DNA from: Bacteroidales bacterium
Lineage (GTDB): Bacteria > Bacteroidota > Bacteroidia > Bacteroidales > DTU049
Assembly: GCA_016937255.1 (NCBI GenBank)
Contig: JAFGWG010000025.1
Span: 1-37,948 of the forward strand
Direction of reading: 5' to 3'
DNA length: 37,948 nt
In this document: piece by piece, positions 22,864-32,764 of the stretch
How positions within the stretch are numbered: the stretch's first letter is position 1
Layout: each line of letters opens with the position of its first letter
Notes under the pieces: generated by a model
The model's input: the letters and a program-made list of their open reading frames with translations, nothing else
Database searches by the model: none
Told to the model about the DNA's origin: nothing
Program-made: the position numbers and the translations under genes

Positions 22864-23922
22864 TCAGTTTTTATCCACAGCTTTTTTCAAAGTAAAAGCA
22901 AATGTTGTTCCCACATCTGTGTTGGAGCGAACATTAATACTTTGGTTATGGGCTTCGATGGTATGTTTCACAATAGCCAATCCAAGTCCGGTTCCGCCCA
23001 TTTCACGACTGCGGCTTTTATCTGTGCGATAAAATCGTTCAAAAATGCGGGGAAGATCTTTTTGGTCTATTCCAACTCCGTTATCTGTAATTTCGATGAG
23101 CACATTTTCATCCATATCGAAAACACTAACAGTGGTTTGACCTTCTTTTTTTCCATATTTCAATGAATTGTCAATGAGGTTAATCATGACCTGTCGAATT
23201 TTCCCTTGATCTGCAAAAACACGAATAGCTTTATCGAACCCTGGCTCATAGACCATCTCGATTTTATGTTTCATGGCTTTAATTTCCATAAAGTCGAAAA
23301 CATCTTTTACCAGAGCCGAGAAATTCATATTAATCGTATTCATTTCAAGCATTCCGGTTTCAATTCTTGAAATTTCCTCCAAGTCATTAATGATGGCAAT
23401 AAGCCTATTGATGTTTTTAGCGGTTCTTTTCAGGTATTTTTTATTGATTTTTTCGTCTTTCAAACCGCCATCAAGCAGTGTGAGAACATATCCCTGAATG
23501 GTGGTAATTGGCGTTTTCAATTCGTGAGACACATTGCCAAGAAATTCGCGCCGATAGGCTTCCATTTTCTTTAAATTTTCGATTTCGCTGTTTCTGGCGG
23601 CAGCCCATTCTTTCACATCTTTGTTTACTGCCCCAATTATGTCTTTGCTGTTGTGAATTGGAAACTTGTTTTGTGCGCCGCGCTTAGTAGAACTAATGCT
23701 TTTATAGATTACTCGAATTCGCTCATAAATAAAGCGATCCAAAATAAGTCGCAGAAGTATCCAGCTGATGAAAAAGATGATAATTGCACTTATTGCAGAA
23801 TGTATGATATGAATCTCATTTTCAAATATCCATGAAACGCAAAGGTCGAATACAATTGAGGCAACTGCAATTAAAAATGCAACTGAGGGGGAGAGTTTTT
23901 TAGTATTGCCAAAATGAAACAT
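22864..23922 (-). CDS. PhoR-like sensor histidine kinase
   Basis: The product has 352 residues. Two transmembrane helices (about 12-33 and 37-61) are separated by only a few residues, so there is almost no periplasmic sensor domain. A linker leads to the HisKA domain with the phosphorylated His133 (FLGNVSHELKTPITTIQGY) and a HATPase domain with N box (NLIDNSLKYG), G1 (DNGVGID) and G2 (GGTGLGLAIVKH). This short form resembles PhoR-type kinases of Bacteroidota, which lack a large input domain and may sense through a transporter. It follows the response-regulator gene by one base, so the two are coupled. Phosphate as the signal is inferred from the layout and the neighbouring porin, not proved. 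Confidence 0.93.
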   Translation of the reverse strand: MFHFGNTKKLSPSVAFLIAVASIVFDLCVSWIFENEIHIIHSAISAIIIFFISWILLRLILDRFIYERIRVIYKSISSTKRGAQNKFPIHNSKDIIGAVNKDVKEWAAARNSEIENLKKMEAYRREFLGNVSHELKTPITTIQGYVLTLLDGGLKDEKINKKYLKRTAKNINRLIAIINDLEEISRIETGMLEMNTINMNFSALVKDVFDFMEIKAMKHKIEMVYEPGFDKAIRVFADQGKIRQVMINLIDNSLKYGKKEGQTTVSVFDMDENVLIEITDNGVGIDQKDLPRIFERFYRTDKSRSREMGGTGLGLAIVKHTIEAHNQSINVRSNTDVGTTFAFTLKKAVDKN

Positions 23923-23923
23923 C

Positions 23924-24610
23924 CTAGTCTATTTCAAATGTATATCCAACGCCCTTTACGGTTCTGATGACATTGATTCCTATTTTTTCACGAATTTTAC
24001 GAATATGAACATCTATGGTGCGATCACCTACAACAACATCGTTTCCCCATACTTTGGAAAAAATTTCCTCACGGGTAAAAACTTTGCTTGGCTTTCCGGC
24101 AAGTAATTGCAAGAGCTTAAATTCTTTTCGGGGTAGAATAATTTCTGTGCCATCGATGATGACAAGATATCTTTCAGGGTCAATAGTTATAGAACCGTGA
24201 ACCAATAATTGGCTGTCTTGCAGTTCACTTTTTGATTTTCTCTGATAAGATTTTACTTTGCTTAAAAATACTTTTGGCTTAATAGGTTTGCTTATATAAT
24301 CGTCGCCACCGGCTTCAAGGCCTGCAATTTGTGAATAGTCTTCTGAACGTGCTGTGAGGAAAACAATAGTGCTGTTTTTTAATTCTTCAATAGTTCTTAT
24401 CTCAGCACAAGCGGTAATGCCATCCATTTCGGGCATCATTACATCCATAATAATAAGGTCGGGAGTCACTTTTTTCGCCTTTTCAATGGCTTCTAGTCCG
24501 TTTTTCGCAGTATAAACATCGTAGTCTTCTTTTTCCAGATTATATCTGAGAATTTCCAAGATGTCTTTCTCGTCGTCAACCAGAAGTATTTTATAGTTTT
24601 TGTTTTTCAT
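23924..24610 (-). CDS. OmpR/PhoB family response regulator
   Basis: The product has 228 residues from the ATG at 24610. That start places the conserved KILLVDDEKDILE at the N-terminus; the in-frame start 24 bases upstream adds an atypical leader. The receiver domain has Asp12/Asp13, the phosphorylated Asp56 (LIIMDVMMPEMDG), Thr86 (FLTARS) and Lys108 (YISKPI). The C-terminal winged helix follows (FKLLQLLAGKPSKVFTREEI ... DRTIDVHIRKIREKIG ... VRTVKGVGYTF, approximate). It is a DNA-binding transcription regulator paired with the downstream kinase. A TATTTTTG -7 match and a TTAA-type repeat with 11-base spacing lie upstream, which would fit autoregulation. Confidence 0.95.
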   Translation of the reverse strand: MKNKNYKILLVDDEKDILEILRYNLEKEDYDVYTAKNGLEAIEKAKKVTPDLIIMDVMMPEMDGITACAEIRTIEELKNSTIVFLTARSEDYSQIAGLEAGGDDYISKPIKPKVFLSKVKSYQRKSKSELQDSQLLVHGSITIDPERYLVIIDGTEIILPRKEFKLLQLLAGKPSKVFTREEIFSKVWGNDVVVGDRTIDVHIRKIREKIGINVIRTVKGVGYTFEID

Positions 24611-24631
24611 TGACAAAAATGATTTCACTAG

Positions 24632-24639
24632 CAAAAATA
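24632..24639 (-). promoter_or_regulatory. Candidate -7 element for the two-component operon
   Basis: The minus strand reads TATTTTTG, matching TAnnTTTG, about 21 bases before the start codon of the response-regulator gene. No -33 TTG is evident, which would be consistent with a promoter that needs an activator. Confidence 0.4.
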
Positions 24640-24708: not shown

Positions 24709-26205
24709 CTAGAACTGTATATAAATGAAAGGCATAGCCTCCAAAATATAAAGCTGATACAAAACAATAACCAAAATGGCAAATGCAAGTGCTTTAAGTG
24801 TCCAATGCCATTTTTTGAAGAAATTGAATATAGATGTGTACATTTTATTCGGCAAGAATTGAAGAATGAGTGCGATTACCATTACGAGGAACGGAGTTGT
24901 GTATATTCCAAACCATTTTGAGAAAAGGCTTAAATCGATTTCAGTGAACATTTTTTTCCAGAAATCAATGGCATCGCTAAAAGTTTTGGCTTTGAGTAAA
25001 ACAGCTGTAAAAACCAGAAAATGGAAAGTGATGAGGATGCTGAGCACTTTGTAAATTACTTTTGGCATCCATTTCTGTACTTTTTTTCGACCGGAGGAGC
25101 TAAATACATCCCATGCAATAGCTAAGCCATGCAACAAACCCCAAACAACGAAAGTTATTGCTGCTCCATGCCAGAGTCCGGAAATTAAGAATGTGAGAAA
25201 TACCGCAAGCATGGCTCCGGCAAGTTTCCATCTCCTCCAGGCAAATGCCATTGGTTGATACAGATATTCGTTTAGCCAATTGTATAAAGTAATATGCCAT
25301 CTGCGCCAAAATTCGGAAATGTTTCCGGCAAGAAAAGGCTTATTAAAGTTATGTTCAATGGTAAAGCCCATTAGGAATGCAAAGCCGACCATCATGTCGG
25401 TATAGCCCGCAAAATCGAAAAAGAGTTGAATCATTGCACCATACGAAGCCATATAGGCATCGAAACCGGTAAAAAACTCAGGACTTTCAAAAATCCTATC
25501 CACGAAATTGGAAGCAATATAGTCGGCTACAGCAATTTTCTTAATCAATCCCAGCATAATCAAAAACAGACCCTTACTTAGTGCTTCTTTGCTTATTTCG
25601 GGTTTGGTAATAAACTGTGGAAGGAGGTCGCGGGCTTTTGATATGGGACCGGCAAGAATATTTGGGAAAAACGAGACATATAAAATATATCTAAACCACG
25701 ATTTTTCGGGTTTTTCTATTACCTCCCGCTGAATATCGAAAATATAAGTCAGCGTTTTAAATACAAAATACGAGATTCCAATGGGTTGTATAATTTTCAA
25801 AACCAGTGGCTCTGCTCCCGGATGTACGATTCCTGTCCAACTTTCTAATAGGAAATTGGTGTACTTAAAATACATCAGCGCACCCACGTTAATGAGTACA
25901 GATAAGGTCAGTAGCAGGTTTTTAATATGTGCTTTTCGGGATTTGAATATCCCCATCCCAATGAAATAATCACTTGTTCCCATGGCAATGAGCACGAAAA
26001 CAAAGAGTCCGCTGAGTTTATAGTAGAAATAGAGACTAAAAACGAGCAGAAGAGCATTTCTTATAGGTCTTGAATTGAAGAAAATGCTGTAAAAAATATA
26101 AAAAACGGCAAAAAGAAGAAAAAATGTAACCGACTGATACATCAATGGGTTAGCCGGATTGTATGTTAGTGATTGTAGAAAAACCTGCAGATTAAAGCTT
26201 CCCAT
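24709..26205 (-). CDS. MBOAT membrane O-acyltransferase (AlgI/DltB type)
   Basis: The product has 498 residues with about eleven hydrophobic segments. Conserved blocks include PIGISYFVFKTLTYIFDI, FFPNILAGPISKARDLLPQF, DFAGYTDMMVGFAFLMGF, FWRRWHITLYNW and the active-site histidine block GLWHGAAITFVVWGLLHG. MBOAT proteins of this type take an acyl group from a thioester donor on the cytoplasmic side and pass it across the inner membrane to a periplasmic SGNH-type transferase. The C-terminus is PFIYIQF, with a tyrosine near the end, like the tails that carry the acyl group in related systems. It is the last gene of the six-gene operon, one base after the SGNH-LysM gene. With a DltA-like ligase and a carrier protein in the operon, DltB is the closest functional analogue. 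Confidence 0.95.
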   Translation of the reverse strand: MGSFNLQVFLQSLTYNPANPLMYQSVTFFLLFAVFYIFYSIFFNSRPIRNALLLVFSLYFYYKLSGLFVFVLIAMGTSDYFIGMGIFKSRKAHIKNLLLTLSVLINVGALMYFKYTNFLLESWTGIVHPGAEPLVLKIIQPIGISYFVFKTLTYIFDIQREVIEKPEKSWFRYILYVSFFPNILAGPISKARDLLPQFITKPEISKEALSKGLFLIMLGLIKKIAVADYIASNFVDRIFESPEFFTGFDAYMASYGAMIQLFFDFAGYTDMMVGFAFLMGFTIEHNFNKPFLAGNISEFWRRWHITLYNWLNEYLYQPMAFAWRRWKLAGAMLAVFLTFLISGLWHGAAITFVVWGLLHGLAIAWDVFSSSGRKKVQKWMPKVIYKVLSILITFHFLVFTAVLLKAKTFSDAIDFWKKMFTEIDLSLFSKWFGIYTTPFLVMVIALILQFLPNKMYTSIFNFFKKWHWTLKALAFAILVIVLYQLYILEAMPFIYIQF

Positions 26206-26206
26206 G

Positions 26207-28213
26207 CTACATTATAATTAGTTTATCCCCAACGTTAATTCGGTCAGATTTTAAATTATTTGCTTTCTTAATCTTGTCTACCGAAGTATTATATTTTTTA
26301 GCAATCGACCACAGCGATTCTCCACTTTGAACAATATGTGTTCTGCGAAGACCAGAATTATTAGTGTTCGAATTATTATCGCTTACATATCCCGTTTTGT
26401 TGGTGTAAATTACGAGCTTTTTACCGGCGACAATATTGTCAGAGCTAAGGCCGTTCCAACTTTTAATGTCTTTTACACTAACCCCAAATTTTATGGCAAT
26501 AGCACCAAGGTTGTCACCACGCTGAATGGTGTAATATACTTTATTGCCACTGGTGGAGGTATTTTGATTGCTATTATTATTTGTGTTATTATTGTTCGTG
26601 TTATTCGTGCTTCCAGTATACCCTCTTGGGTAAATGAGCAGAGTTTTACCTGCATAAATATTCGTGCTGTGCATATTATTCCATCGCTGAATATCGGAAA
26701 CACTTACACCGTAGCTGGCAGCAATTTTACCAAGATTATCACCCGTTCTTATTTTATAATAAACAGGATTGGTGCCGGTGTAACTAGCACTATAAGTACT
26801 TGTTGTTTGATCGTTTTTATAATTATCAATTTTATCGCCAGACGCAATGCCTTGTTTATTGTAATAGGTAGATTTATCAACCACCCATTTAGCAAAATCT
26901 GTGGTGTCAATTTTATTATCAAATGCAATTAGGCTGTCAGGAGCATAGGTTAGAAAATTGCAATATGAATTTAGTATTGCATTGCAATATAACTCGCCTT
27001 TAAGTTTATATCCCTTAAAGCTGAGATGTGTTTTATCTCTTTGTGATAGTCCAAGTTTTGACCAATTACTCATGGAATAGCGACCGCCAGAAATATTATA
27101 ATAATCGTAAAGAATAACATCTTGTTCTTTGGCCACAAGTCGGGTTAAAACACTATAATCTTGGCAATTCTTAATATTGCTTCCTCTGAAATAAATATCT
27201 TGTGCATTGGGTATCATAATTGCCGCATCAGGTACACTTTCTCTAAAAAACTCAATGGCTTTATTAAGACTGCTCATGATATACTGATAATTAAAGCTGC
27301 CTCTAAAAAAATCGTTGATACCAAGGTCAAGAATAATCATGTCGGGAGAAATACTCTTCAGTTGCTCTGCCATTAAGTTTTGATTGAACATGCTGCGATA
27401 ACCTGCGCCGTTTATGCCAACACTATGATAGAGAACACCTTTGTCTTCTGCACTTTCAATACTAAGACCATAACATTCAAAGTATTTTTGAGCTGTATCG
27501 GTTTTATTCAACATTACGGTAATGGTATCACTTGCTTTGGGCAAATTTATTTCGATATACGGCAGGCCGTCTTCAATATTACAGTCTACTTTAATTGGCT
27601 TTTCTTTAGACGAATAAGTAAGTAAGGCATCGTAGCTTTCTATACCTTTGTGGCAATAAAGCTTAATCTTCGTAAAATCGGGTTGTATAGAGTAATAATG
27701 ACGGCGAAAAATAATTTTGAATCCGGCTGTAGAATCTGTGGTGAAAATTGTAATTCCGCTAACTCCAAGATTATGTTTGGGTTTAATGGCAACATTTTTA
27801 GTGTTGTCCCAGTTGCCATAACTATTTGCATAATAATCGTAAGCCGAGTGGGTGCCGGCAGCTTGGTATGGAAAGACCATTCCCCGACCACCATAGCCAA
27901 ATATCGATTGCAACATATATCGCGACATTCCCGATCCCATATCGCTTTGAATGTGTGAGTCTCCAATGTGAAGAATAACGACCTTCTCTTTATCGGCATT
28001 GCCGAGTTTTGTAAAGAATGGAGCAACAGCATCCTGCTGATACCATTCAAGCATATTTTGATCGAATTTTATAAAATCGTAATACTCATTGTATTTAATA
28101 GACTCCCTTATAAAAGCAGTGTCTTTGAAATTATGCTCCTGTGCAAAGGAAGCCGATAATCCCACACAAATAGATACAATTATGGAAAACGATTTTATTA
28201 AAATGCTTCTCAT
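26207..28213 (-). CDS. SGNH (GDSL-like) esterase/transferase with three C-terminal LysM domains
   Basis: The product has 668 residues. A signal peptide ends near residue 24 (LSASFAQ). The SGNH domain has block I VVILHIGDSHIQSD with nucleophile Ser86, block III DLGINDFF and block V DKTHLSFKGY with the Asp-His pair. Residues about 455-668 hold three LysM domains: YYKIRTGDNLGKIAASYGVS, YYTIQRGDNLGAIAIKFGVS and THIVQSGESLWSIAKKYNTS. A very Asn/Thr/Ser-rich linker separates the first two. LysM domains bind GlcNAc-containing glycans, chiefly peptidoglycan. The protein is therefore likely to add or remove an ester on the cell wall or a related glycan in the periplasm. It overlaps the upstream SGNH gene by 4 bases. 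Confidence 0.94.
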   Translation of the reverse strand: MRSILIKSFSIIVSICVGLSASFAQEHNFKDTAFIRESIKYNEYYDFIKFDQNMLEWYQQDAVAPFFTKLGNADKEKVVILHIGDSHIQSDMGSGMSRYMLQSIFGYGGRGMVFPYQAAGTHSAYDYYANSYGNWDNTKNVAIKPKHNLGVSGITIFTTDSTAGFKIIFRRHYYSIQPDFTKIKLYCHKGIESYDALLTYSSKEKPIKVDCNIEDGLPYIEINLPKASDTITVMLNKTDTAQKYFECYGLSIESAEDKGVLYHSVGINGAGYRSMFNQNLMAEQLKSISPDMIILDLGINDFFRGSFNYQYIMSSLNKAIEFFRESVPDAAIMIPNAQDIYFRGSNIKNCQDYSVLTRLVAKEQDVILYDYYNISGGRYSMSNWSKLGLSQRDKTHLSFKGYKLKGELYCNAILNSYCNFLTYAPDSLIAFDNKIDTTDFAKWVVDKSTYYNKQGIASGDKIDNYKNDQTTSTYSASYTGTNPVYYKIRTGDNLGKIAASYGVSVSDIQRWNNMHSTNIYAGKTLLIYPRGYTGSTNNTNNNNTNNNSNQNTSTSGNKVYYTIQRGDNLGAIAIKFGVSVKDIKSWNGLSSDNIVAGKKLVIYTNKTGYVSDNNSNTNNSGLRRTHIVQSGESLWSIAKKYNTSVDKIKKANNLKSDRINVGDKLIIM

Positions 28214-29688
28214 TGACCCCCCGATCTTGTGTGTAACAAATACTTGTTGTATTCAGCCATTATTGCCAGATATATCTCGTTGACTACAATTTCTCTTCCC
28301 CGATCGCTATAATGTCCGTCGCGGGATGCAAGCCCTTTTCTATACCAAGCCATAACAGAGTTTTCACCGCCCATTAGTTCGAGTAAATCGAAAAATGCGC
28401 AGCCGTTTTTAATGGCTACTTCTTTCTGCACATCTCTGATTCTGCCAACCATTGGGTAAGACATATACGTGCCACCTACGCTACGTGCAACATCGTTTAC
28501 TCCGATAACCAAAACAGAAGCTTCGGGATAGGCGAGTTTAAAATGAGCATATAAGCGATCGTAAATATTTTTGATGTTTTCAAGCGATTTTTCATTCTTT
28601 ACATAAGGGGTAACATTTCCACCAAATTGAAGAATGGCCAGCTTATTATTGATCATTCTGAACTCGTTGCCCAAAAATTCTTTACTAATGAGCATTAGCC
28701 CATCTCCGCTATGGCCGCGTAGCCCGTAATTATCGAATTGAATACCAATTCCCGGATCAAATGTAAGACCATATATTTCGGGGCTAGGTCCTGTGAAAAC
28801 AAAGCGAAGTTTTAATGAGTTTCTGCTTAATGGAATATTCACCACATTAAATGGATCGGGATTGTCGAGCGTCATTTCTGCAAGCAAATCGCCATTTGAT
28901 GAATCATAAACTTTAAGCTCAGCAGGTTCCTCGGCTTTTCCGTACCAGATTTTAGCCTGCCCGTATGAGCGGAATACTTTCAAAAACATAGTTGCATTGC
29001 TGTATGATACCGCTGGCGTTGTGATTTTAATGGTGTCCCCTTCTTCAGAAATGGAATCTCTACTGCTTTCAGGCACAAAGAAGCGGTAACGGAAAACAGT
29101 TCCTCCCGGCGAGTATAGGTTGTGGCTGGATTTATTGGTAAAAACAGTATATCGCACCCAGTTTCCACTCGAAATTCTTGAGTAGCTAATTGGAGAAGTA
29201 ACATCTTCCATCGGAACATAACCCACGCCATTGCCTCCAAATTTTGACTGGAACATGATGCGGAGCAAACTGGTTATACGGTCGCCTTCAATTTGTGAAT
29301 CGCCATAATGCCCAACCCTGATTAAGGTTGAATCAGTGGTTTGCAGGGCGCGGAAGAAGTTGTCGAGGGCTGTCTTTTTTCCACTTATTATAGGATTTTC
29401 AAAGAAAGCACTTTGATCGAAAATACTTTCATCGAGAATGCTCATGCGGCTGATTATATCTTCGTTAATACCATAAACTCTCGATTCGAGAATGGCAATA
29501 ACACTGTCGATATTGGCGGTATTGTCCACAAAACGGAAATCCATCATCTCTTCAGCATTCATAAACTGAATATTGCGCTCTTTACCTAATAAAGTAATTT
29601 GCACATCATCATCAGGCCAAAGGCACGACGCAATAAATAAAAGCCCTCCGCTGAGTAAGATGATGGCAAGTACCTGAAATCTTTTCAT
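28210..29688 (-). CDS. SGNH/GDSL-like lipoprotein, probable periplasmic acyltransferase or esterase
   Basis: The product has 492 residues. The signal peptide ends in LLFIASC (Cys22), a lipobox. The N-terminal third is helical and unassigned. The SGNH fold follows with IRVGHYGDSQIEGD (Ser131), an oxyanion-type LQFGGN block, VIGVNDVA, and SRDGHYSDRG near the end supplying Asp457 and His459. A beta-sandwich-like insert (about 185-310) lies between the first and later blocks, as in carbohydrate-binding inserts of AlgX/AlgJ-type proteins. It stands between the carrier-protein gene (7 bases) and the SGNH-LysM gene (4-base overlap). It is the best match in position to DltD, the extracytoplasmic partner of DltB, but the exact reaction is not shown. 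Confidence 0.88.
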   Translation of the reverse strand: MKRFQVLAIILLSGGLLFIASCLWPDDDVQITLLGKERNIQFMNAEEMMDFRFVDNTANIDSVIAILESRVYGINEDIISRMSILDESIFDQSAFFENPIISGKKTALDNFFRALQTTDSTLIRVGHYGDSQIEGDRITSLLRIMFQSKFGGNGVGYVPMEDVTSPISYSRISSGNWVRYTVFTNKSSHNLYSPGGTVFRYRFFVPESSRDSISEEGDTIKITTPAVSYSNATMFLKVFRSYGQAKIWYGKAEEPAELKVYDSSNGDLLAEMTLDNPDPFNVVNIPLSRNSLKLRFVFTGPSPEIYGLTFDPGIGIQFDNYGLRGHSGDGLMLISKEFLGNEFRMINNKLAILQFGGNVTPYVKNEKSLENIKNIYDRLYAHFKLAYPEASVLVIGVNDVARSVGGTYMSYPMVGRIRDVQKEVAIKNGCAFFDLLELMGGENSVMAWYRKGLASRDGHYSDRGREIVVNEIYLAIMAEYNKYLLHTRSGGQ

Positions 29689-29695
29689 ATTTCAA

Positions 29696-29929
29696 TTACA
29701 GTTTTTCCTGAATTTTATCGAGCATATCGCCCACGTTTTTCATTTTTACCAACTCTTTGAGCTTAAACTTGATTCCAAAAACCGCTTCTGTTTTTGCAAT
29801 CATGGTAAGATGCGTGAGGCTGTCCCATTTGTCCACATCATTGGCCGTCATTTCACGGGTGATTTCAAGTGAGGAATCATTAAAAATTTCTCTAAAAATA
29901 TCGCGGGTTTTGATAATAATATCTTCCAT
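29696..29929 (-). CDS. Acyl carrier / DltC-like carrier protein
   Basis: The product has 77 residues, mostly acidic helices. The phosphopantetheine attachment site is KWDSLTHLTMI with Ser37, in the usual place at the start of helix II. A 4'-phosphopantetheinyl transferase would convert it to the holo form. It is encoded downstream of the adenylating ligase and GNAT genes and just before an SGNH lipoprotein gene, so it should carry the activated acyl or aminoacyl group as a thioester to the MBOAT protein. DltC is the direct analogue. It is not the housekeeping fatty-acid carrier, which has a different context and a DSLD-type motif. Confidence 0.95.
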   Translation of the reverse strand: MEDIIIKTRDIFREIFNDSSLEITREMTANDVDKWDSLTHLTMIAKTEAVFGIKFKLKELVKMKNVGDMLDKIQEKL

Positions 29930-29973
29930 TGTTTCCTTTGCTTTTTAATTGAGTGCAAAAATACGTTTTCTCT

Positions 29974-30651
29974 TTATGTAGTTAGTAGTTTTTCCAATTT
30001 AATCTGCATAAGTACCATTCCGCTGCCGGGATAGTATTTCAATACATCCGGATTATTACTCTTGCTCTGTTTGACAACGCTGAAGCCCATGTTTTGGTAT
30101 AGTTTTATGGCTTTTTCATTTTCTACATAGGTCATCAGTTCGGCCATTTCAGCTTTTGGATGCTCTTTTTGGCATCTTTCCACATGAGCCGAGAAAAGTC
30201 GGGTTGCCAGTCGGTTTCCTCTAAATGCAGGATCTACATAAACAGATTCCAGTTGTAATGCGCCCATGGTGCGGTGTACCACAACTTCATCAATCAGTTC
30301 TTTCATTTTCTGAGCATGATCAAGGGCTTCACGCGGGTAATATTCCTGAAACAAGGCAGCTCGTACCATCCAAGAGGCAACACCGTCAAATCCTTCTACC
30401 CATCCGGCAACCGCAGCAGCCATTTGCCCGTCTTTTTCTGCAACTAAAAAATGCTCTGGACTGAGTTCACATGAATCTAGCTCTTCGTCGAGCATGAGCT
30501 TAATTTTCTCTTCTGCAATTTCTTCGCTGAGATTGAAAACTCCACAATAGCTGCTTACAGGCGAAGGCCCCTTGTCGGCCATAAGAATGGCTGTGGCAAG
30601 AAAATCTTTGTCATTTAAGTTTGCAGCTCGTATGGTGAAATTATTTTTCAT
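29974..30651 (-). CDS. GNAT family N-acyltransferase
   Basis: The product has 225 residues from the ATG at 30651, which starts the domain at FTIRAAN; a longer frame reaches 30696 but overlaps the ligase gene deeply. The GNAT core has LESVYVDPAFRGNRLATRLFSAHVERC, which holds the acetyl-CoA pyrophosphate loop (R-G-N-R-L-A), and the C-terminal NEKAIKLYQNMGF block. GNAT enzymes transfer acetyl or another acyl group from CoA to an amine. It overlaps the ligase gene by 11 bases and so belongs to the six-gene operon. It may N-acylate the amino acid before or after carrier loading, or another component. This step is absent from classical dlt operons. Confidence 0.9.
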   Translation of the reverse strand: MKNNFTIRAANLNDKDFLATAILMADKGPSPVSSYCGVFNLSEEIAEEKIKLMLDEELDSCELSPEHFLVAEKDGQMAAAVAGWVEGFDGVASWMVRAALFQEYYPREALDHAQKMKELIDEVVVHRTMGALQLESVYVDPAFRGNRLATRLFSAHVERCQKEHPKAEMAELMTYVENEKAIKLYQNMGFSVVKQSKSNNPDVLKYYPGSGMVLMQIKLEKLLTT

Positions 30652-32125
30652 TGTCAATTTGACTTTTCTGAATGCTTTTTCGGTCGATTTTGCCATTATT
30701 GTTTAGTGGAAAGGAAGGAATCTCTCTAAATTCTGAGGGAATCATATAATATGGCATCTTCTTTTTTAAGTCTGCGATGAGTTTGTCCTTGTCTTTAATT
30801 TTTCCTTCAACAATGGCAATGATTTTGGCATTTCCGGTTTTATCAAGGTCGGCCAAGGCAACTACTCTTTGTTTATTTAGGCTGACGCTTAAATGGTACT
30901 CAATTTCGCTCAGTTCAATTCGAAATCCCTGAATTTTTACTTGATAATCTTTTCGTCCAAGGTAGAAATACAGCCCGTTTTCGTCCTGATAGCAGATGTC
31001 GCCCGAGCGATAATATCTTTTGCTTTCAAATTCTAAAAATGCTTCTTTGTCTTTCTCTTGATTATTGAGATAGCTTTGTATAACCTGCTTTCCGTGAAGA
31101 ATGAGTTCGCCTTTTTCGCCCTGATCTACTTCCTTATTGTTTTCATCAATAATAATACAATCGATCTCTTTTGTGGCTTTGCCGATACAAACAATTCCGT
31201 TTGCTGCAGGAATCTTTTCTTCGGGCATGGTATACGTTACGCAATAAATAGTGGCTTCGCTCGGACCGTAGAGGTTTTGAAAAACTGCATTCGGACAGCA
31301 TTTTTTCCATTCTACAGTTAGGTCGTAAGGTACAGCTTCGCCGCTGAGGCACATATAGCGCATGTGTGGCAAGTCGATATCTTCGAAATAAGGTTTGAGA
31401 TAAGCAATTACGCTGGGTACTACAATGGCAAAACTGATTTCATATTCTTCCAGCAGTCTATAAATCTCAGTATATTTGATATTATTGTTTGGAACGGTAA
31501 ATAGGCAGCCTTTAAATAGAAATGGTGCCAAAATGGAAACAATCGACAAGTCGAAGCTTAGGTCGAACATTTGTAAAAAGCGGTCGCGGCTGCTGAGTTC
31601 GTAACCCATTTCGGGCAGGTTGCGAAGGAATGAACGCACATTTCCGTAAGAAACCGGAACGCCTTTTGGGGTGCCTGTGCTGCCTGAAGTGAAAAGGATA
31701 TATGCAATATCGTTGTCTTCTGGGTTTTTAGCTATAATATCTTCGCACATGGTATTCATCTTCCCGAGCTGAAGAGTTTCTTTTGGTTCTTTTCCCAGAC
31801 TTACTTCGTCGATGCTGTAGAAAAGCAGTTCAATTCCTGCTTGGCTAATAATGCTGTCGATACGGTCTGACGGTAAATATGGATTTATGGGAACATAGGT
31901 GTTTCCAGTTGCCCATATTGCCAGAATAGCAGCATAAGTGTCGTAGCTGTCTGAAGCAACGAGGCCAATACTTTTTCCTTGCATTTCTCTGCTTCTGATT
32001 TCATGCATAATGCAGGAAAAACGATTGAATAAAAAGTCGTAGCGATAGAATTTATCTTCTATGCACAGAGCATCGGCTTCGCGATCATTGGAAGGAATAA
32101 AGGGAAAATCAAACATAGACGGCAT
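30641..32125 (-). CDS. DltA-like adenylate-forming ligase
   Basis: The product has 494 residues and no signal peptide. All adenylation-domain motifs are present: A3 YILFTSGSTGTPKGVPVSYG, A4 SFDLSIVSI, A5 NLYGPSEATIYCVTY, A7 YRSGDI, A8 GRKDYQVKIQGFRIELSEIE and A10 NNNGKIDRK with the catalytic lysine. The Asp in SFDLS is where DltA and NRPS adenylation domains bind the alpha-amino group, so an amino acid is the likely substrate. Size and motif forms match DltA, which activates D-alanine with ATP and loads it on DltC. A start at Met4 is possible. It is the first gene of the operon and has a full -7 match 18 bases upstream. It could instead activate another small acid. Confidence 0.92.
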   Translation of the reverse strand: MPSMFDFPFIPSNDREADALCIEDKFYRYDFLFNRFSCIMHEIRSREMQGKSIGLVASDSYDTYAAILAIWATGNTYVPINPYLPSDRIDSIISQAGIELLFYSIDEVSLGKEPKETLQLGKMNTMCEDIIAKNPEDNDIAYILFTSGSTGTPKGVPVSYGNVRSFLRNLPEMGYELSSRDRFLQMFDLSFDLSIVSILAPFLFKGCLFTVPNNNIKYTEIYRLLEEYEISFAIVVPSVIAYLKPYFEDIDLPHMRYMCLSGEAVPYDLTVEWKKCCPNAVFQNLYGPSEATIYCVTYTMPEEKIPAANGIVCIGKATKEIDCIIIDENNKEVDQGEKGELILHGKQVIQSYLNNQEKDKEAFLEFESKRYYRSGDICYQDENGLYFYLGRKDYQVKIQGFRIELSEIEYHLSVSLNKQRVVALADLDKTGNAKIIAIVEGKIKDKDKLIADLKKKMPYYMIPSEFREIPSFPLNNNGKIDRKSIQKSQIDNEK

Positions 32126-32212: not shown

Positions 32213-32764
32213 ATGAACAGGACTATTTTTCTTTTAGTTTTTGCCTTTGGGTCCGTAAATATTGCTGCCCAGCAGGTGGATGCCACTCGGCGTGACATGA
32301 GTTCGGAAGAGCAGGTTTTATATGATTTGATCATGGATTATCGTAATGATAAGCATCTTGCAAGTATTCCGATTTCAGAAAATCTATCTTATGTGGCATT
32401 AATGCATGCCCGAGATTTGAATGAAAATCCCCCTAGTGGGCGTTGCAATATGCATAGTTGGTCGGGTAATGGCCCTTGGGGTAAATGTTGTTATACCGAC
32501 GATCACAAAAAATCGCAATGCATGTGGGATAAGCCGGCAGAGTTAACCAATTATCCCGGATACGGCTACGAAATTGCTTTCTGGTCGAGCGATACATCTA
32601 ATATGGCAGCGCAAGCAATAATAGGCTGGAAAGAAAGCAAGAGTCATAATAATGTGATGCTAAATCTAGGCGTTTGGCGTGAGCACCCATTTAAAGCCAT
32701 TGGTGTGGCCATAGTTGGTAATTATGCTGTGGCTTGGTTTGGGGAAGAGGAGGACGTGGATTAA
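32213..32764 (+). CDS. Secreted CAP (SCP/PR-1) domain protein
   Basis: The product has 183 residues. A signal peptide ends near residue 19 (VNIAAQ). The CAP fold follows with VLYDLIMDYRNDKHL, LSYVALMHARDLNEN, the HSWS histidine region, YGYEIAFWSSD, AIIGWKESKSHNNVML and KAIGVAIVGNYAVAWFGE. Both His residues and the Glu that form the CAP cleft appear to be present. Three Cys in the CCYTDDHKKSQC stretch may form disulfides. CAP proteins are found outside the cytoplasm and bind lipids, glycans or peptides; the bacterial ones have little known function. It is divergent from the acyl-transfer operon with 87 bases between start codons. Confidence 0.92.
   Translation: MNRTIFLLVFAFGSVNIAAQQVDATRRDMSSEEQVLYDLIMDYRNDKHLASIPISENLSYVALMHARDLNENPPSGRCNMHSWSGNGPWGKCCYTDDHKKSQCMWDKPAELTNYPGYGYEIAFWSSDTSNMAAQAIIGWKESKSHNNVMLNLGVWREHPFKAIGVAIVGNYAVAWFGEEEDVD

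Follow-up and report, generated by a model that had tools for sequence, protein, structure and literature searches.

The window examined here is a stretch of 37,948 nucleotides from an uncultured Bacteroidales bacterium (assembly GCA_016937255.1, contig JAFGWG010000025.1). It contains six tightly packed genes on the - strand. In order, these are predicted to encode an amino-acid adenylating ligase (30641-32125, 494 aa), a GNAT acyltransferase (29974-30651, 225 aa), a carrier protein (29696-29929, 77 aa), an SGNH protein that we call SGNH1 (28210-29688, 492 aa), a second SGNH protein with three LysM domains that we call SGNH2 (26207-28213, 668 aa), and an MBOAT protein (24709-26205, 498 aa). 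The longest ORF for the GNAT starts at 30696, but relatives align from the Met at 30651. Successive genes are separated by an overlap of 11 bp, gaps of 44 and 7 bp, an overlap of 4 bp and a gap of 1 bp. Counts of promoter-like and terminator-like sequences were near the level of shuffled sequence (33 against 25.8, sd 5.6, and 8 against 6.4, sd 2.6, respectively), and co-transcription is inferred from the spacing alone. Rfam and tRNA scans of the window found nothing.

Profile searches assigned each protein to a family. The ligase matched the AMP-binding family (5.7e-53), and its best overall NCBIfam match was the amino-acid adenylation model TIGR01733 (298 bits). The GNAT matched its family at 3.9e-12, and R144, G145 and Y185 were invariant in an alignment of 9 sequences. 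The carrier scored below the Pfam cut-off (0.018; 15.8 bits, cut-off 20.8) but matched the carrier protein 2lml at 1e-19, and it contains a putative phosphopantetheine site, by motif, at Ser37 in WDSL (codon 29819-29821). SGNH1 matched Lipase_GDSL_2 at 2.7e-7, below the cut-off (31.7 bits, cut-off 32.9), and SGNH2 matched the same family at 1.1e-9. The MBOAT matched its family at 1.5e-25 and the DltB structure 6bug at 1.4e-22, and contains the conserved MBOAT histidine, His346 in GLWHG (codon 25168-25170), invariant in 14 of 14 aligned sequences. These results confirm the initial annotation of six adjacent genes of these families at this place.

Alignment of the ligase with its homologs showed that Asp192 in FDLS (codon 31550-31552), which aligns with the amino-group-binding Asp of DltA and A-domains, is invariant in 10 of 10 ligases. 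To compare the binding pocket we used residues named in PMC8972799 and a dlt-like set from a relative's genome, because a search for a curated DltA around the genome of one related locus (L021) gave none above the cut-off (0 of 1 and 0 of 26). The pocket of the window family (DLVICSLIYK) retains the Asp and the Leu but differs from DltA at two of the three residues lining the D-Ala methyl pocket, where Met and Cys are replaced by Val and Ser in the window.

The MBOAT ends in the hexapeptide FIYIQF (24712-24729, containing Tyr495), which fits the acyl-shuttle motif FxYxxF (PMC12148441) and was missed in the initial annotation. Of 74 MBOATs collected here, 71 end in this motif, including all 26 that have a carrier within 5 kb on the same strand; in one of these 26 (locus L028) opposite-strand ORFs lie in between. 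The 74 are not a random sample: they are ORFs scoring over 300 bits in stretches fetched for carrier, ligase, GNAT, SGNH1 or MBOAT matches, and exclude a 109-aa fragment (L222) and the MBOAT of L180 (160 bits).

SGNH1 has an N-terminal hydrophobic segment with a lipobox Cys and a proposed nucleophile, Ser131, in a GDS motif (codon 29296-29298) that is conserved in 66 of 66 SGNH1 sequences. Its motif VII is shortened to D457-G458-H459 (28312-28320), whereas SGNH2 retains a standard DxxH motif, D393-K-T-H396 (27026-27037), with D and H conserved in 53 of 53. Among solved structures, both SGNH profiles were nearest to the Neisseria peptidoglycan O-acetylesterase NmApe (9.8e-18 and 7.7e-34; 4K7J is named NmApe in PMC6174289). 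The second-best PDB matches of both were 8gkd and 8gld; neither these nor 2lml were identified by the papers examined, and PMC4176424, PMC7083599 and PMC9487903 did not contain the residue or PDB terms sought. Structure prediction of SGNH1 from three sequences gave no usable model (mean pLDDT 39.7).

We next examined whether the genes are conserved together, a condition that the initial annotation had set for its own reading, and the outcome was mixed. All six stand in the same order in seven genomes including this one. In three others (G050, G100 and G162) a carrier-bearing operon has no ligase, and in each of the three a ligase lies elsewhere in the genome, as does the GNAT in G162. Of 22 GNAT ORFs, 18 share strand and locus with a ligase and the genomes of the other 4 have one. 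For the association of the GNAT with a ligase scoring over 450 bits the counts were 10/11 against 15/284 (Fisher, 2.9e-11), although 7 of the 11 GNAT genomes contributed rows to the GNAT profile and 8 of the 25 ligase genomes to the ligase profile. By contrast, 49 of the 66 SGNH1 loci read have only SGNH1, with or without its usual partners, and no carrier. This three-gene back end (SGNH1-SGNH2-MBOAT) is widespread in Bacteroidota, mostly without a carrier. An SLT lytic transglycosylase lies within 300 bp of SGNH1 in 24 of the 49 carrier-free loci, as expected of a peptidoglycan O-acetylation (pat/ape) cluster, and 9 of the 49 show no MBOAT on the stretch read, some at contig ends. For these counts we fetched 60 SGNH1 stretches (20 from each of three picks) rather than all hits, and L019 and L020, which are the same contigs as L022 and L023, were counted once.

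The remaining 17 SGNH1 sequences, including that of the window, form one clade (SH-aLRT 100) in a tree that was built with the motif columns included. This clade combines a D/N/E-G-H motif (17 of 17, against D-x-x-H in 49 of 49 others), a carrier in the operon (12 of 17 against 0 of 49; Fisher, 1.3e-9) and Ile/Leu at hexapeptide position 4 (15 of 15 against 2 of 40; 1.1e-11). All of the Fisher values treat loci as independent, which they are not, and because the clade is one origin its linked traits are not independent either. None of the 17 has the transglycosylase neighbor. The description of SGNH1 as a lipoprotein in the initial annotation holds for the window but not as a general feature, since the lipobox Cys occurs in only 5 of 17 members (window, L022, L023, L025 and L105) and the rest have a hydrophobic N-terminus without it. 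Other members depart further from the pattern. Five have no carrier in the stretch read (L097, L101, L105, L137 and L138); a ligase search that covered the genomes of the first three but not those of L137 and L138 found none in G001 or in G072, which is 70% complete, and only a weak one in G023. L103 has a carrier but a ligase without an Asp at the aligned place, and its genome gave no GNAT match. L102 lacks SGNH2 and MBOAT on its contig. Ligase L224 was left out of the ligase tree.

The initial annotation had interpreted the locus as a complete Dlt-like operon esterifying a periplasmic glycan, perhaps peptidoglycan, and this interpretation was partly supported. The Dlt pathway (DltA, DltC, DltB, DltX, DltD), which D-alanylates teichoic acids, likewise has an amino-acid ligase, carrier, MBOAT and SGNH as well as an FxYxxF tyrosine shuttle, and a front end that works like Dlt is thus supported as a prediction. 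However, we reject strict membership. The ligase scored 282.7 bits against a cut-off of 559.85 for DltA (TIGR01734) and 294.8 against 476 for PRK04813, and the MBOAT scored 191 against 375 for DltB (TIGR04091). No DltD match was found for SGNH1, which matched no NCBIfam family, or among the 17 families listed for SGNH2. No DltX-like gene occurs among the six, where gaps are at most 44 bp and the shuttle motif is fused to the MBOAT. The GNAT and LysM domains are additional to Dlt. For contrast, the genome G162, of the same order, holds a system of the present type and also a dlt-like A-B-X-D-C set (L180:6889-11157). That set has a separate 49-aa DltX-like protein ending FVYQQF, a DltD-like SGNH (138.5 of 150 bits) and an MBOAT without the fused hexapeptide, with all scores below curated cut-offs.

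The suggestion that the target is peptidoglycan gained support from the SGNH structural matches, the LysM domains and the transglycosylase beside the homologous core. The locus shares with peptidoglycan O-acetylation (OAP) clusters, comprising PatA, PatB and Ape1 or, in Bacteroides, Pat, Ape1b and Ape1c (PMC12148441, PMC1199599), an MBOAT with a fused hexapeptide and two SGNH genes of PatB/Ape1 type. It differs in having the ligase, GNAT and carrier in front, the D-G-H motif in SGNH1, the LysM tail on SGNH2 and Ile/Leu at hexapeptide position 4. Orthology with the Bacteroides proteins is inferred only from gene order and accessions in PMC1199599.

Based on these results, we suggest with moderate confidence that the operon is a carrier-fed version of the Gram-negative peptidoglycan O-acylation machine that would install a small, possibly N-acylated, amino acid. 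In this model the ligase adenylates a small amino acid and loads it on the phosphopantetheine of the carrier, where the GNAT probably acylates its amino group. The MBOAT would move the acyl group through the membrane onto Tyr495 of its own hexapeptide. SGNH1, held at the membrane beside the MBOAT, would take it on Ser131 as the proposed acyltransferase and pass it to a periplasmic glycan, most likely peptidoglycan. SGNH2 would bind peptidoglycan by its LysM tail and remove or edit the ester. Our analysis establishes the gene content, motifs, conservation and co-occurrence, whereas every chemical step, the cargo, the N-acylation, the target and the division of labor between the two SGNH proteins are inferred.

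This model predicts a peptidoglycan modification, aminoacyl or N-acyl-aminoacyl esters, that we did not find in literature searches restricted to openly licensed papers. Such esters could change wall charge and resistance to wall-cutting enzymes. The operon is also a direct counter-example to the statement, in a 2025 paper, that MBOAT/SGNH pathways other than Dlt, including those with a fused shuttle motif, lack a carrier protein (PMC12148441). The shared signature of ligase, carrier, fused FxYxxF and altered SGNH1 motif makes cargo choice in envelope acylation testable by swapping front ends. A broader possibility, which we regard as tentative and somewhat less likely than not, is that a lineage of Bacteroidota esterifies its peptidoglycan with an amino acid or N-acyl amino acid, by a Dlt-type activation module joined to the peptidoglycan O-acetylation machine. 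In this view, fused-shuttle MBOATs of this phylum often draw on carriers, the split between a carrier with DltX and CoA with a fused shuttle does not hold, and cargo can be changed by exchanging the front end.

Other explanations remain possible, although we consider each unlikely. The same chemistry could serve another target, with the amino acid, perhaps D-alanine, going on a capsule, O-antigen or other periplasmic glycan and the Ape1-like SGNHs having been re-targeted. A related ligase, 37.7% identical, on a Segatella copri plasmid (NZ_CP085933.1) stands with a carrier, an AAC(3) and an alanine racemase among glycosyltransferases, with no MBOAT or SGNH annotated in the 19.5 kb read, and ligase-carrier-MBOAT sets with other downstream proteins exist. 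However, both SGNHs are nearest to NmApe, SGNH2 has three LysM domains, and no glycosyltransferase cluster was seen next to this operon among the ORFs listed, as judged by Pfam for 10 proteins only. Slightly less likely is ordinary peptidoglycan O-acetylation, in which the GNAT or another enzyme loads acetyl on the carrier or the MBOAT uses acetyl-CoA. The core is of the pat/ape type, carrier-free loci with it are common, and two Bacteroides species O-acetylate peptidoglycan (PMC1199599). Against this are the conserved ligase with its amino-binding Asp, also found in trans, and the altered SGNH1 motif and hexapeptide of this clade.

We consider two further possibilities very unlikely. The cargo could be a carboxylic acid without an amino group, such as a fatty or hydroxy acid. 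L103 combines the same back end and a carrier with an AMP ligase lacking the aligned Asp, and FkbH stands by a carrier in L030, L031 and L033, but the invariance of D192 and the best NCBIfam match of the ligase argue against this. Alternatively, the front and back ends could be separate, with the ligase, GNAT and carrier making a soluble N-acyl amino acid or metabolite while the MBOAT-SGNH set acetylates peptidoglycan. Consistent with this, the ligase and GNAT can lie elsewhere in the genome, and ligase, GNAT and carrier also occur together without an MBOAT on the stretch read (L260 and L261). By contrast, the carrier stays in the back-end operon when the ligase is elsewhere (L027, L100 and L104), and a distant lineage has SGNH1-carrier-MBOAT twice (L259).

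We found six ORFs on the minus strand, running from 32125 down to 24709 with gaps of 44 bp or less, that are predicted to encode an amino-acid ligase, a GNAT, a carrier, SGNH1, SGNH2 with three LysM domains, and an MBOAT. The genome that contains them is 3.85 Mb. Ligases with 62% and 61% identity are encoded on contigs from Bacteroidetes bacterium HGW-Bacteroidetes-6 and an Acetofilamentum sp. MAG. A family search identified three MBOATs in the genome, and no carrier was detected by profile in the stretches read around the other two (loci L036 and L037). The initial annotation described these genes as a complete Dlt-like operon in which six overlapping or tightly spaced genes cover activation, carriage, membrane passage, and transfer, and this gene set was confirmed. 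Its proposal that the operon esterifies a periplasmic glycan, perhaps peptidoglycan, with an amino acid or N-acyl amino acid was supported only in part.

To determine whether the arrangement is conserved, we searched 59 genomes and found a carrier like this one in 14 of them, including the genome of the window. All six genes stand in the same order in four family members (loci L022-L025) and in two genomes of another family (L098 and L099), making seven with the window. Loci L027 and L104 have GNAT-carrier-SGNH1-SGNH2-MBOAT without a ligase, and L100 has carrier-SGNH1-SGNH2-MBOAT. In all three of these genomes a ligase lies elsewhere that scores nearly like the in-operon ligases of other families (565-631 bits against 631-642 bits), and in the genome of L100 a GNAT lies elsewhere as well. 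Locus L102 has ligase, GNAT, carrier, and SGNH1 only. Locus L103 has the core plus, at its 3' end, a carrier and an AMP ligase with no Asp at the aligned place.

The back end of the operon is of a known kind. A profile of SGNH1 matched 160 of 295 genomes of the order and 77 of 395 genomes of the phylum sample (E <= 1e-10). We read 66 loci with an SGNH1 over 120 bits, of which 49 have no carrier over 60 bits on the stretch. Of these 49, 33 show SGNH1-SGNH2-MBOAT in a row on one strand, 2 have SGNH2 on the other strand, 5 have an MBOAT but no SGNH2 found, and 9 show no MBOAT. The nearest solved structures of both SGNH profiles are the 4k3u/4k7j set (9.8e-18 and 7.7e-34), and 4K7J is the Neisseria peptidoglycan O-acetylesterase (PMC6174289). 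In 24 of the 49 loci an SLT transglycosylase homologue lies within 300 bp upstream, two of them weak matches (L140 and L143), whereas this was seen in 0 of the other 17. Pat, Ape1c, and Ape1b of B. thetaiotaomicron have been listed under consecutive accessions, and 27% and 69% O-acetylation has been reported in B. thetaiotaomicron and B. fragilis (PMC1199599). We conclude that the core is the Bacteroidota peptidoglycan O-acylation cluster, with orthology to those genes inferred. SGNH1 is the steadier partner of the MBOAT because five loci have both without SGNH2 (L133, L134, L135, L147, and L148) and one locus in a genome of another family of the phylum (L259:5452-12730, genome G563) has two tandem SGNH1-carrier-MBOAT units. 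This locus also has a GNAT on the other strand, and ligase-GNAT pairs lie on another contig of the genome (L261). We therefore infer that SGNH1 is a transferase and SGNH2 an esterase or editor.

The SGNH1 of the window falls in one clade of 17 (SH-aLRT 100). In all 17 the motif near the C-terminus is one residue shorter (D, N or E, then G-H) than the D-x-x-H of the other 49. Of the 17, 12 have a carrier in the operon compared with 0 of the 49, and position 4 of the hexapeptide is Ile or Leu in 15 of 15 against 2 of 40. LysM tails are on SGNH2 of the window and of 9 of 9 clade members tested, and not on the one carrier-free member tested. Genome G100 has an SGNH1 of each type (loci L104 and L125). 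Since they belong to one clade, these traits count as one origin. Against this reading, 5 of the 17 have no carrier on the stretch, and among their genomes no ligase was found in G001 and G072, the latter 70% complete, and only a weak one in G023.

Acyl transfer to a Tyr in a C-terminal FXYXXF motif has been described, with the motif on the separate DltX where a carrier is the donor and fused to the MBOAT where acyl-CoA is the donor, and other MBOAT/SGNH pathways were said to lack a carrier (PMC12148441). Here, 71 of 74 MBOATs collected end in FxYxxF, including all 26 that have a carrier within 5 kb on the same strand, although one of the 26 (L028) has opposite-strand ORFs between and the sample gives no measure of prevalence. 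On the MBOAT tree the carrier label needs 5 changes, at least 3 of which are forced by well-supported branches. For comparison, a genome of the same order (G162, contig C133) contains a dlt-like set at L180:6889-11157. Its DltA-, DltB-, DltC-, and DltD-like genes score 429 of 560, 233 of 375, 23 of 52, and 138.5 of 150 bits, all below curated cut-offs, and a separate 49-aa DltX-like protein ending FVYQQF is encoded between the DltD-like and DltB-like genes.

We next examined what the cargo might be. The amino-binding Asp is kept in 10 of 10 ligases. Five of six ligases of other families with this operon type share one pocket, DLMLLCVIFK, and the sixth (L177) has DLIMFCIVVK. The five have the Leu, Met, and Cys that line the D-Ala methyl pocket of DltA (PMC8972799); Leu and Asp were matched by motif because their printed numbers clash. 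The window has DLVICSLIYK. A small amino acid is likely, and D-Ala is plausible for the other families without being assigned for the window. A related ligase on a Segatella copri plasmid stands with a carrier, an AAC(3), and an alanine racemase. The GNAT family was found in 11 of 295 genomes of the order and 3 of 395 of the phylum sample, with the genome of the window in both. Of 22 GNAT ORFs read, 18 share strand and locus with a ligase, and the genomes of the other 4 have a ligase elsewhere. Of the four GNAT genomes of the order sample that gave no row to the GNAT profile, three have a ligase over 450 bits and the fourth has one of 317 bits beside the GNAT. N-acylation on the carrier is the simplest reading of this link, but it is inferred from co-occurrence alone and carrier-MBOAT sets without a GNAT exist.

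Other loci also join ligase, carrier, and fused-shuttle MBOAT (L222, L223, L226, L227, L231, and L236), and L226, L231, and L236 show no GNAT of this family. The five downstream proteins examined (all but that of L223) are 311-355 aa long with a GDS-, GSS-, or GNS-like motif and no Pfam family above cut-off. At L226:6971-10006 (genome G078) two ligases stand in tandem before a carrier and an MBOAT, one with the pocket code DLMLLCVIFK and the other with DFVYIGILFK. Locus L260:6518-12848 (genome G648) has ligase-GNAT-GNAT-FkbH-carrier-GNAT-GNAT in a row. An FkbH-like gene lies beside a carrier with an MBOAT on the locus in L030, L031, and L033, on the same strand only in L031, perhaps suggesting that glyceryl units are offered to envelope acylation.

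Taken together, gene order, motifs, and co-occurrence were observed directly, whereas the SGNH roles, cargo, N-acylation, and target are inferred. Our reading is that Dlt-type loading is combined with a peptidoglycan-acylation back end with a fused shuttle. We consider this whole model somewhat more likely than not. That a carrier feeds this fused-shuttle MBOAT is likely, that peptidoglycan is the target is moderately supported, and N-acylation is possible but remains tentative.

Two neighbors of the operon in the window were also observed. A divergent gene next to the ligase (32213-32764) is predicted to encode a secreted CAP-domain protein, with homologues near the operon in L022, L023, and L025 but not found in L024. 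Directly downstream on the same strand (22864-24634) are a response regulator and a histidine kinase, for which any regulatory link would rest on position alone, and a similar pair lies about 2.5 kb downstream of the operon in L025.
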